Shown here one piece after another: positions 34,901 to 40,230 of a DNA stretch of 41,901 bases. The translations under genes were made by a program, and so were the position numbers. Position 1 is the first letter of the stretch, and every line of letters starts with the position of its first letter. The notes under the pieces were generated by a model, which ran no database searches, was not told the DNA's origin, and saw only the letters and a list, made by a program, of their open reading frames with translations. The stretch comes from Candidatus Bathyarchaeota archaeon RBG_13_38_9 (GTDB lineage Archaea; Thermoproteota; Bathyarchaeia; 40CM-2-53-6; RBG-13-38-9): assembly GCA_001775955.1 (NCBI GenBank), contig MEZD01000016.1:49079-90979 (forward strand), read 5' to 3'.

Positions 34901-36817
34901 TCAAGTAAGGTCTAGTTGATCACTTACCAACTTCGAAATGTCTGTAATCTTAAGTGGCAACTTCTCAATTTTGGCAGCTTCTCCTAAACCTATGAGGCAT
35001 GCTGGGCATGCAGATATCAACAGTTCTGCTTTGGCGTCTTTTACCTGTTTAATTCTTGTTACTCCAACTTTGTTAGCTAAGTCAGGTACTACTGCTTTCA
35101 TTACTCCACCTGTTCCACAACATCTTCCTGCACTTCGATTCTCTGGTAGTTCAGCAATATTTTCTGCATATTTGGCGATTATAGCACGAGGTTCGTCATA
35201 CATACCAACTAAACGTCCAAGTTCACATGGGTCATGATATGTTACTATGCCTGTAAACCGACTTTTTGGTTTGAGTCTTTCATCTTCAAGTTTTGAATTC
35301 AAGTATTCGACTAGATGAATTGATTGGAATTTCAATTGGTGACCTAGTATACTCGGATATTTCTCCTTAAATGCTCGATAACAGCCTGGACAGTTGAAGA
35401 TGACTTGTTTAGCATCCATGTTTTCTATAGCTTCAACATTGTGCCTAGCTATCTCCTCAAGTCCTGGAGTGGCTCCACTAAAGTCAAGTGGTGCACCACA
35501 ACACCATTCGTTTCCACCTAGTATAGTCCAATCCTCGCCTAGGTGATTTAGAATTGAGGAGACAGATTTAGCAACTTCTCCAAGACGACCAGAGTAGGAG
35601 GTAACACATCCCACGAAGTATATTGTCTGAGCTTTCTCCTTTCTGGGAACATTGGCAGATTCATAATCTATCCAGTCTTCTCTTGTATCATTTGGTAGTC
35701 CATACAAATTCTTGTGTTTTCTTATTTGTTTAGAGACTTCTTTAACAGAGTCGGGAGAACAACCATCCATGAATGTGGTTTCTCGAGCCGCCTTCCAAAG
35801 ATTAACTAGGTCGAATTCAACTGGGCATACACTCATACATCGGCCACATAATGTGCATTCATAGAGAAATGAGTTGAGTTCCTCCATGTCCTTCTTCTTA
35901 ATCTTCCGTTTGAATATCAATGAGATTGGACCGCGTTGCTTGAGAACCTTAGATCTATACGCAAGTAGCCTCGCACGCGGTGAAGATGACTTGGATTTAT
36001 TTTCGTCATGAACTGGACAAGCCTCCACACAGTCTCCGTCTTTTCCACATGCCATTAGTTGAGTGACACCATAACGAGTAAGATTTCCAAATGATCTGTT
36101 CTCGTTCACATCTTTAAATTTCAAAACTTTAGGATGAGAAATCCCTCGATTCAGAACTAAAGCAATACATGCTATTGCTTTCATTATGCCGCCAGAAAAC
36201 AGTATAGAGGCAAGTAACCATCCATAAACGATAAAGATGTGAAAGCCGACAACAAAGGTTTGATCAATGAAGGGAATTGTTAGAGTTATGAGAGTATATG
36301 GTAATGGTTCAACATAGAATATCGAATTTATTGTATATGAAACCCCATATGCAACTATAATCCCTATAATAGCGAATTCAACATAATCGAAACGGGAGAG
36401 CCCGTCACGGAGCTTCCTATTTTTAACTAGTTGGATACCATATAAAACGAAACCTATGACAAAGAGTGCACCCACATATCTGTGAAATATCCTGACTGGA
36501 TACATAAAATCAGGCCATAGAGGACGCGCACTCTCTAATGTCATGCCAGCTCCATGGCAGGATGAACATTCTCCTATGTTTAATGCATGTGGAATTTGCT
36601 TTCCAGTTTCAACAAGTGGATCGCTCAATAATGTAAAGATAAATGAAAGATCCAAGGCTAACCATGATAATAACACTAGGACCATTGAAACATGAAAGAG
36701 CCAGAATGATATGGAACTAAACCACATTCTTGGATATGCGAAAAGCTCAACCAACGCATTTACAAGAGATTTTTTAGTTGGATATTTGAAAGCTCGGATG
36801 CGTCGATCGATCTTCAA
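34901..36817 (-). CDS. DsrMK-like cytochrome b/Fe-S/CCG membrane oxidoreductase with one haem c motif
   Basis: The 638-residue fusion has a membrane part with about five helices (32-60, 108-130, 145-165, 174-205, 208-223). His42, His112 and His193 are candidate haem b ligands. The loop after the first helix holds CSSCH (84-88), a c-type haem site that should face outside. A soluble part has two Fe-S motifs, CGKDGDCVEACP (257-268, one Cys fewer than standard) and CTLCGRCMSVCP (321-332). Two CCG domains follow (Cys404, Cys439/440, Cys476/479 and Cys531, Cys566/567, Cys604/607), which in HdrD/DsrK bind a non-cubane 4Fe-4S cluster. It is adjacent to the hydrogenase genes and probably accepts electrons from them. 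Final acceptor is unknown. Confidence 0.85.
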   Translation of the reverse strand: MKIDRRIRAFKYPTKKSLVNALVELFAYPRMWFSSISFWLFHVSMVLVLLSWLALDLSFIFTLLSDPLVETGKQIPHALNIGECSSCHGAGMTLESARPLWPDFMYPVRIFHRYVGALFVIGFVLYGIQLVKNRKLRDGLSRFDYVEFAIIGIIVAYGVSYTINSIFYVEPLPYTLITLTIPFIDQTFVVGFHIFIVYGWLLASILFSGGIMKAIACIALVLNRGISHPKVLKFKDVNENRSFGNLTRYGVTQLMACGKDGDCVEACPVHDENKSKSSSPRARLLAYRSKVLKQRGPISLIFKRKIKKKDMEELNSFLYECTLCGRCMSVCPVEFDLVNLWKAARETTFMDGCSPDSVKEVSKQIRKHKNLYGLPNDTREDWIDYESANVPRKEKAQTIYFVGCVTSYSGRLGEVAKSVSSILNHLGEDWTILGGNEWCCGAPLDFSGATPGLEEIARHNVEAIENMDAKQVIFNCPGCYRAFKEKYPSILGHQLKFQSIHLVEYLNSKLEDERLKPKSRFTGIVTYHDPCELGRLVGMYDEPRAIIAKYAENIAELPENRSAGRCCGTGGVMKAVVPDLANKVGVTRIKQVKDAKAELLISACPACLIGLGEAAKIEKLPLKITDISKLVSDQLDLT

Positions 36818-37125
36818 GATGCCTTCATCACATTAGAAACTATTTTTCCGTTTGTTAGTTTCAATCTATGTTAAAAATACATCTATCTGCTCAGGTAAAT
36901 TTCAAATTGTTAAAAAGTGTGTACTATTTGTTATCAATTATTATTTTCTCAAGTTTACAAAATAATATCTTAGCTAGATAAGTACACACTCGATATTTAC
37001 TCCTTATCTTGTTTTGAAAATTGTGCTTGGAATAATCATGATAATAATTAAGCGTAAAATGAATTAATCCTAGCATCCGCTAGTAACTGTATAAAATATT
37101 CGTCTATAGTGAGAATTTCTTGAGA
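36818..37125. other. Intergenic region with 9-bp inverted repeat
   Basis: A 308-bp AT-rich gap between the hydrogenase large subunit and the DsrMK-like gene, on the promoter side of the latter. AGTGTGTAC (36916-36924) and GTACACACT (36982-36990) are a perfect inverted repeat 57 bp apart, which could bind a regulator or form a stem. No gene is visible. The gap suggests that the DsrMK-like gene has its own promoter. Confidence 0.45.
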
Positions 37126-39584: not shown

Positions 39585-39645
39585 GACATTCGACCTTACT
39601 TTGGAGATTTCGCTCCCCTATCAAATGGGAGATATATATGGATTG

Positions 39646-40230
39646 CTACTTCTTTTTACTCGTTGAGTCTTGATTGTGAATATTTAAAGTCATTTTATCT
39701 AGTGTTTTCATTATTTCAGAGATAGCTTTTGGTATAGCTGCCTCAACGAGTTTTGAGAGTTCTATCCCTGCATCAAGAGACGATGGTTCAATTCCGATTA
39801 ATACTATCTTTTTTGGTAAATCAATGACACCTTTAGCCATCTTCAGTGTAGAAATCAAATCTAGCTGGTGTAGACTTGTAAATTTCGGAAGAAGACTGAT
39901 GTCATCTTCAATAACCAAATCTATATTTTTTACTGTACCAGGTTTATCGTCCATTCTTACAGCATCCACAATTATCACAAGTGAATTTCCCTCTATAACA
40001 TTCAAAAGTTCAAAACTTGATGTTCCAATCTCGTGAATCTCCACTAATTTTGAGATATCTCTTTTTTTGAGTTGTCTGACTATGTGAATACCAACTCCTT
40101 CATCGCTCAAGAGTACATTGCCTACTCCTATCACGATTGGTTTGGAATTCTTGTGGGTCATATTTGATTCAACTGCAGTATGCACGATTAACTTTTCAAT
40201 ATTTATGGTGAGGATTTGAACCATTTCCAA
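39646..40230 (-). CDS. Hydrogenase maturation endopeptidase (HyaD/HycI family)
   Basis: The core is IGVGNVLLSDEGVGIHIVRQ (about 34-53), with the metal-binding Asp/Glu in DEGVG. A second acidic strand appears as IIVDAVRMDDKPG (about 89-101), and SLHQLDLISTLKMA supplies a conserved His. FxxIGIEPSSL follows. These enzymes cut off the C-terminal peptide of the large subunit after Ni insertion. The peptide in this window's large subunit (after DPCLACSVH) is the obvious substrate. The frame opens at 40230, but ATG 40161 is a likely start since family proteins begin just before the GVGN motif. It lies 61 bp upstream of the small subunit. Confidence 0.85.
   Translation of the reverse strand: MEMVQILTINIEKLIVHTAVESNMTHKNSKPIVIGVGNVLLSDEGVGIHIVRQLKKRDISKLVEIHEIGTSSFELLNVIEGNSLVIIVDAVRMDDKPGTVKNIDLVIEDDISLLPKFTSLHQLDLISTLKMAKGVIDLPKKIVLIGIEPSSLDAGIELSKLVEAAIPKAISEIMKTLDKMTLNIHNQDSTSKKK

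Follow-up and report, generated by a model that had tools for sequence, protein, structure and literature searches.

Electron chains that lead from a c-type haem through a b-type haem to a protein with CCG domains are known as Tmc, Hmc and DsrMKJ. Among the [NiFe] hydrogenases, enzymes that combine HydSL with Isp1 and Isp2 form a known type (groups 1e and 1g, and SUL2 of the Sulfolobales) that has been modelled as a transmembrane relay (PMC11018855). For the archaeal class Bathyarchaeia, one study described a group 1a enzyme for which it found no cytochrome partner and whose acceptor it regarded as unknown (PMC9534799). Here, we analyzed a 41,901-nucleotide stretch (the window) at one end of contig C16 (MEZD01000016.1) of Candidatus Bathyarchaeota archaeon RBG_13_38_9 (genome G000; 1.72 Mb, 75% complete), in which a [NiFe] hydrogenase is followed by a fusion protein that joins a membrane cytochrome b to two iron-sulfur (Fe-S) motifs and two CCG domains and carries a CSSCH motif. 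Our best explanation, which falls just on the probable side, is that the fusion would act as a membrane-spanning conduit for the exported hydrogenase, passing electrons from H2 through haem c and haem b to the CCG domains and on to a disulfide. An earlier interpretation made from the letters alone (the sequence-only reading) had proposed the coupling of a hydrogenase to this fusion; hydrogenase, cytochrome b and CCG protein together are already known from the Isp-type arrangement (PMC11018855). What is novel is that the parts, each of a known sort, are combined unusually, in one chain beside a hydrogenase and with a putative haem c loop.

The fusion and its parts lie in the window as follows:

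34901..36817, minus strand: fusion protein, 638 amino acids (open reading frame; Pfam CCG and Fer4 matches)
36098..36817, minus strand: cytochrome b half, residues 1-240 (alignment, hidden Markov model (HMM) scores)
36512..36601, minus strand: 30-residue loop, residues 73-102, which carries CSSCH and has no counterpart in the orthologue or relatives
36554..36568, minus strand: CSSCH, putative haem c attachment site, residues 84-88
35810..36058, minus strand: two 4Fe-4S motifs, C257-D260-C263-C267 and C321-C324-C327-C331 (Pfam, alignment)
35369..35620, minus strand: CCG domain 1, complete cysteine set (Pfam)
34985..35239, minus strand: CCG domain 2, complete cysteine set (Pfam)

Its start codon is TTG, and no other start is plausible in the opening part of the stop-to-stop frame. 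The cytochrome b half found no match in a Pfam search; hydropathy and models give four membrane helices, and His42, His112 and His193 are invariant in an alignment of its relatives. Pfam, hydropathy and a motif scan bore out the cytochrome b, the two CCG domains and the position of CSSCH after the first helix, as originally described. The two reported Fe-S motifs are likewise present (residues 257-267 and 321-331), with the qualification that the first, CxxDxxCxxxCP, has Asp260 where other relatives carry Cys. Both CCG domains (Pfam, E 7e-28) keep their full five-cysteine sets (C404/439/440/476/479 and C531/566/567/604/607; HdrB type, ten cysteines), and the fusion contains two complete CX~34CCX~35CXXC motifs, by which HdrD-type disulfide reductases are recognized. 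In a full-length AlphaFold model, the predicted local distance difference test (pLDDT) mostly exceeds 90 in the C-terminal part, and the membrane half is poor because the rows of separate cytochromes b were misaligned. A membrane-only model has four helices at medium confidence and gave no significant match in a fold search, the best being NarI; the fold of the soluble half resembles EtfD, LutA and HdrB.

With the cytochrome b half as query, the fusion was found in 2 of 257 genomes of the class, namely G000 and Candidatus Bathyarchaeota archaeon QZM_B1_bin_58 (G007), which belongs to the same family and is the nearest fusion-carrying genome. Seven further matches comprised six short separate cytochromes and one weak hit, and in a sample of 398 genomes of the phylum a cytochrome b profile recovered only G000, two loci with formate dehydrogenase and a single weak hit. 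A contig scan with two N-terminal patterns of the fusion matched only the G007 record, a plasmid search returned only distant EMO-like proteins (22-25%), and full-text literature searches yielded no paper describing such a fusion. The G007 protein, the only orthologue found, is 65% identical, shares the CxxD of Fe-S site 1 and the lysine at position 213, and is without residues 73-102 and hence without CSSCH; a contig end has removed 28 residues from its N-terminus along with everything upstream of the gene.

The fusion stands last in the minus-strand order ccmC-ccmE-protease-hydS-hydL-fusion, whose other elements are:

41006..41710, minus strand: CcmC, haem delivery for cytochrome c maturation (profile match; the contig ends just past the gene)
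40503..40877, minus strand: CcmE, haem chaperone for cytochrome c maturation (Pfam/profile match)
39646..40230, minus strand: hydrogenase maturation protease, HyaD/HycI family (HycI-type; profile match)
38523..39584, minus strand: [NiFe] hydrogenase small subunit (RRDFLK twin-arginine (Tat) motif, plausible C-terminal anchor helix)
37126..38526, minus strand: [NiFe] hydrogenase large subunit, group 1 (profile and PDB matches)
36818..37125: gap of 308 bp between hydL and the fusion gene, containing an inverted repeat with perfect 10-bp arms (36916-36925 / 36981-36990)

Open reading frames and profiles confirmed the order, strand and positions that the sequence-only reading had given for the protease, both subunits and the fusion; ccmE and ccmC, with which the block begins, had been overlooked. 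The large-subunit gene overlaps the small-subunit gene by 4 bp. Its product ends in DPCLACSVH and a cleavable tail, matches TIGR00391 above cut-off and is nearest to NiFeSe-type (group 1a-like) structures (top PDB entries 5jsu/5jsh), with Cys and not selenocysteine at the active site. Taken together, the Ni ligands, the cleavable C-terminus, the protease gene and the Tat-exported small subunit identify a predicted group 1 [NiFe] hydrogenase. Among the genus-mates of G000 (G001 and G002; completeness of the three genomes 75-82%), G001 has the order ccmA-ccmB-ccmC-ccmE-protease-hydS and G002 the same from ccmB on, and both contigs end inside hydS.

CSSCH is the only CxxCH in the fusion and is followed by Gly; the loop that carries it would be external, as inferred from charge bias. 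In 20,000 sequence shuffles, a CxxCH arose anywhere in 1.3% and within residues 60-102 in 0.09%. CcmE occurs in 20 of the 257 class genomes, six of which belong to the nine-genome family of G000, and the ccm genes in the block strengthen the reading of CSSCH as a candidate haem c site. The motif is not conserved among homologues, an outcome that the sequence-only reading had itself named as counting against it: in the alignment, the loop is missing from the G007 orthologue and from six formate dehydrogenase-linked relatives, and no other relative has it. CSSCH may be free of haem, serving in a disulfide or as a metal loop or having arisen by chance where the loop is variable, with the system being a one-chain Isp1-Isp2-like module. 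This alternative, which we rate as unlikely, draws on a motif that was found once, on low model confidence at the loop and on its lack in a 65% identical orthologue although G007 has CcmE, whereas the canonical CxxCH with its following Gly, the external loop, the adjoining ccmE and ccmC and the rarity of such a motif among shuffles argue for a haem.

A c-type haem in such a module had been thought out of the ordinary, but c-haems are not foreign to such modules in this group, because elsewhere G000 also encodes DsrM and DsrK as separate proteins, together with a cytochrome that has three CxxCH motifs. At that locus (L135 7366-10606, contig C35 of G000), the DsrK-like protein has one complete CCG set and a DsrE-family gene precedes. 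A five-CxxCH cytochrome adjoins an aldehyde:ferredoxin oxidoreductase-like gene in G007 (L122 11130-13884), and G005 encodes an eight-CxxCH cytochrome (L131 6138-7172); one earlier study recorded no multihaem cytochromes in its Bathyarchaeota genomes (PMC9534799). The CxxCH motifs of the EMO-like proteins at L143, L145 and L146 were rejected as haem sites, being located inside Fe-S or CCG motifs.

Starting from the genes, the motifs, their phylogenetic affinity and a loop missing elsewhere, we infer the topology, haem c binding, a physical complex with the hydrogenase, the direction and the substrate of the following path. H2 would be oxidized outside by the Tat-exported HydSL, and electrons would pass along the Fe-S chain of the small subunit to a haem c on CSSCH in the external loop of the fusion. 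From there they would reach a b haem held outside by His112/His193, perhaps a second one held inside by His42 and possibly Lys213, and, through the two 4Fe-4S sites, the paired CCG clusters in the cytoplasm, where a disulfide would be reduced by HdrB-like chemistry. With protons released outside and used inside, such a conduit would form a proton-motive half loop without a quinone, and in reverse operation H2 would be evolved at the cost of the proton gradient. The route from H2 via haem c and haem b to CCG, as first suggested, fits the topology and the cofactor sites and is weakened by the lack of conservation of CSSCH.

Compared with Isp-type systems, the locus has in common an exported HydSL, a cytochrome b in the membrane and a protein with several Fe-S sites in the cytoplasm (a likeness in arrangement), and differs in its one chain, its CxxCH loop, the ccm genes alongside and a group 1a-like hydrogenase. 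In groups 1e and 1g the isp genes stand between the two subunit genes, and in SUL2 they directly follow them; the fusion comes after hydL, at a distance of 308 bp. Tmc and Hmc also bring electrons of periplasmic H2 into the cytoplasm by way of c-haem, b-haem and a CCG protein, but do so with separate subunits and multihaem cytochromes in place of one chain with one haem c site. The TmcB model scored 106 bits against the fusion and the DsrK model 69.8 bits of a 400 cut-off; the DsrM model had no hit in it. DsrMKJOP likewise unites cytochrome b, CCG protein and c-haem, but in separate proteins, and the low DsrK score, the absence of a NIR_SIR match in G000 and the separate DsrM-DsrK-cytochrome set elsewhere in this genome distinguish the fusion from it. 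HdrDE of Methanosarcina and HdrB have the complete pair of CCG cysteine sets seen in the fusion, which differs in its haem c site, in a family where no McrA was found and in having no known methanophenazine-linked partner.

The EtfD/EMO (DUF224) proteins are one chain of cytochrome b, two Fe-S sites and two CCG domains, and PDB 9ojn (EtfD) is the best sequence and fold match to the fusion. With such one-chain proteins known (EtfD, PMC13083937; DUF224 of Syntrophomonas, PMC3582634), and with an independent DsrM-DsrK-type fusion at L179 in another lineage, the joining of the normally separate DsrM and DsrK that the sequence-only reading had stressed is not without precedent. It is quite improbable that the fusion itself works in the EtfD/EMO manner, its CCG half trading electrons with electron transfer flavoprotein (ETF) and its haem b half with a membrane quinone fed by the hydrogenase, even though architecture and top fold match agree and EMO-type fusions occur in other Bathyarchaeia, some beside etfAB. 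EtfD serves ETF and quinone, has no haem c, is unlike the fusion in the sequence of its membrane part, and has altered CCG ligands that make its clusters non-catalytic (PMC13083937), whereas the cysteine sets of the fusion are complete and of the catalytic type. Its EtfD sequence match (126 bits) is far below that of an EMO-type relative (413 bits), and its membrane half gave no significant HMM score against EMO-type halves. No etf genes adjoin it (no etfAB near 34901-41710; no genome-wide ETF search was made), and MqnA was not found in the nine family genomes (other quinone routes were not searched). EMO membership was rejected on the basis of separate supported tree branches, the membrane-half score, the PDB score and the neighbours.

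In a tree of 62 CCG proteins, the two fusions and the DsrK-like proteins of five clusters from other Bathyarchaeia families formed a supported set (95/91); a direct sister relation between the fusions and the formate dehydrogenase-linked DsrK-like group was weaker (95/54). The membrane half reached 51 bits against formate dehydrogenase-linked cytochromes and 6 bits against DsrM-like proteins (HMM). By these sequence comparisons, both halves are nearest to the separate pair of the formate dehydrogenase clusters (L182-L187), not to the pair beside hydrogenases. In these clusters the cytochrome b gene lies directly upstream of the DsrK-like gene; they differ from the fusion in an FdnG/FdnH-like molybdopterin donor, separate proteins, the lack of a CxxCH loop, a first Fe-S site with CxxC where the fusion has CxxD, and a fourth His beside the three, corresponding to Lys213 in both fusions. 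The complete clusters L182, L183 and L185 encode an FdnG-like molybdopterin enzyme, an FdnH-like Fe-S protein, cytochrome b, a DsrK-like and a UbiA-type protein. In L182, the cytochrome b gene overlaps the DsrK-like gene by 4 bp in the order of the fusion halves, and a fusion is therefore easily explained. By inspection only, small TatA-like and TatC-like genes come after the L182 and L183 clusters. Because the halves are nearest to the formate dehydrogenase pair and the loop is missing in all relatives, an exchange of the donor enzyme and a recent gain of the haem loop seem to have taken place: a membrane formate dehydrogenase would have supplied the cytochrome b and DsrK-like subunits, which were fused, placed next to a hydrogenase and later fitted with the haem c loop.

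On contig C33 of G007, beside a uvrC gene 67% identical to that of the window, HydS and HydL are followed by separate DsrM-like, DsrK-like and UbiA-family genes (relatives of the last score best as haem O synthase), and this DsrK falls in a different tree branch from the fusion. The common uvrC neighbourhood therefore points to the same place, with the fused module of other origin. In G036, a relative of the hydrogenase (large subunit 56% identical) has a b561-type cytochrome after it, and the membrane partners of these hydrogenases have evidently been swapped. The fusion adjoins a hydrogenase in G000, as the sequence-only reading described, but the nearest kin of its halves are in formate dehydrogenase clusters. 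This affinity also suits a reading that we regard as rather unlikely, in which the fusion serves a formate dehydrogenase-like or GlcDF system and is a mere neighbour of the hydrogenase with its own promoter. The 308-bp gap with its inverted repeat, the GcvH-GlcD-GlcF genes adjoining the G007 fusion and the b561-type cytochrome in G036 are in keeping with it, while the common strand and order of hydrogenase and fusion, the lack of another membrane partner for HydSL in the window and the separate DsrM and DsrK-like genes after HydSL at the matching place in G007 speak for partnership. The repeat (AGTGTGTACT/AGTACACACT, 36916-36990) is a possible operator or hairpin; an Rfam search of the block gave no match.

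Within our preferred explanation, a conduit ending at a disulfide, such chemistry is favored over a pure relay because the fusion keeps the catalytic CCG ligands that EtfD lost. The sequence-only reading had seen no dsrAB, methyl-coenzyme M or quinone genes in the window, and searches of G000 and its genus-mates for McrA, DsrAB-type (NIR_SIR) and MqnA genes agreed. McrA was not found in the nine family genomes, which makes heterodisulfide an unlikely substrate; sulfite-linked DsrC is unlikely because G000 and its genus-mates have no NIR_SIR (DsrAB-type) match (G007 and G008 do). As substrate, the preferred candidate would be either a GcvH/LbpA-type lipoyl protein or a disulfide of small molecules. 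In sulfur oxidizers, Hdr-like complexes are served by LbpA lipoyl proteins (PMC6067878), and the G007 fusion lies directly upstream of GcvH-like, GlcD and GlcF genes. The orthologous trio of G000 (L136 10134-15273, contig C34) has a class I cytochrome c (Cytochrome_CBB3) two genes upstream. The GcvH-like protein has retained, in ESSKW, a lysine that could carry the lipoyl group, and a GcvH-like gene lies within 6 kb of 23 of the 66 CCG proteins collected for this count, at loci that are not all independent. The full specific proposal, a single-chain, quinone-independent H2:disulfide oxidoreductase acting on a lipoyl-protein disulfide and made from fused and moved formate dehydrogenase subunits with an inserted loop, is in our view doubtful. 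In another Thermoproteota family (L180, L181, L193), DsrM/DsrK-like genes occur with several GcvH-like and GlcD/GlcF-like genes, and at two of these loci, L180 and L193, the cluster has a group 3-like hydrogenase and HdrA-like genes beside it. G000 also has a Nuo-like cluster with an HdrB-type CCG protein among its subunits (L137 8501-13648, contig C12).

The same complex might also run in reverse: electrons from 2-hydroxyacids (GlcD/GlcF with the lipoyl protein) or acyl-CoA would leave by way of CCG, haem b and haem c, and HydSL would release H2 outside. As in syntrophic bacteria, the proton gradient would drive the uphill step; in Syntrophomonas wolfei, a DUF224 protein has this role in reverse electron flow (PMC3582634). 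The GcvH-like-GlcD-GlcF genes downstream of the G007 fusion fit this scheme, as do enoyl-CoA hydratase-like and methylmalonyl-CoA mutase genes in the window; the latter (large and small subunits with a MeaB-like GTPase at 27574-30587, by inspection) suggest propionyl-CoA metabolism. Group 1 hydrogenases, on the other hand, are mostly uptake enzymes, and we consider the reversed flow fairly improbable.

Several points weigh against a hydrogenase-linked conduit. The complete form (hydrogenase, fusion and haem loop) is so far known from one genome only, and so is the linkage of fusion and hydrogenase, the upstream neighbour in G007 being lost at the contig end. The supposed single block holds for strand and order; with 308 bp between the hydL stop and the fusion start, a common transcript of the two is only putative. 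CSSCH is known from one protein only, and Ccm is no proof of a haem on it since G000 has other c-type cytochromes. The inner haem is without its usual second His, with Lys213 in its place, and Fe-S site 1 has Asp in place of Cys. The lipoyl link is by neighbourhood only, with the trio unlinked to the fusion in G000, and gene absences are weak evidence in a genome about 75% complete.

In conclusion, the fusion gives a group 1 uptake hydrogenase of Bathyarchaeia a candidate partner and a well-defined proposed route for its electrons, and the comparative set indicates that, in this class, formate dehydrogenase and hydrogenase use cytochrome b/CCG modules that are related to each other. GcvH-like genes recur as neighbours and suggest a testable substrate of CCG enzymes in archaea without methyl-coenzyme M reductase; if the proposal is true, a respiratory membrane CCG enzyme would have a lipoyl protein as a new kind of partner.

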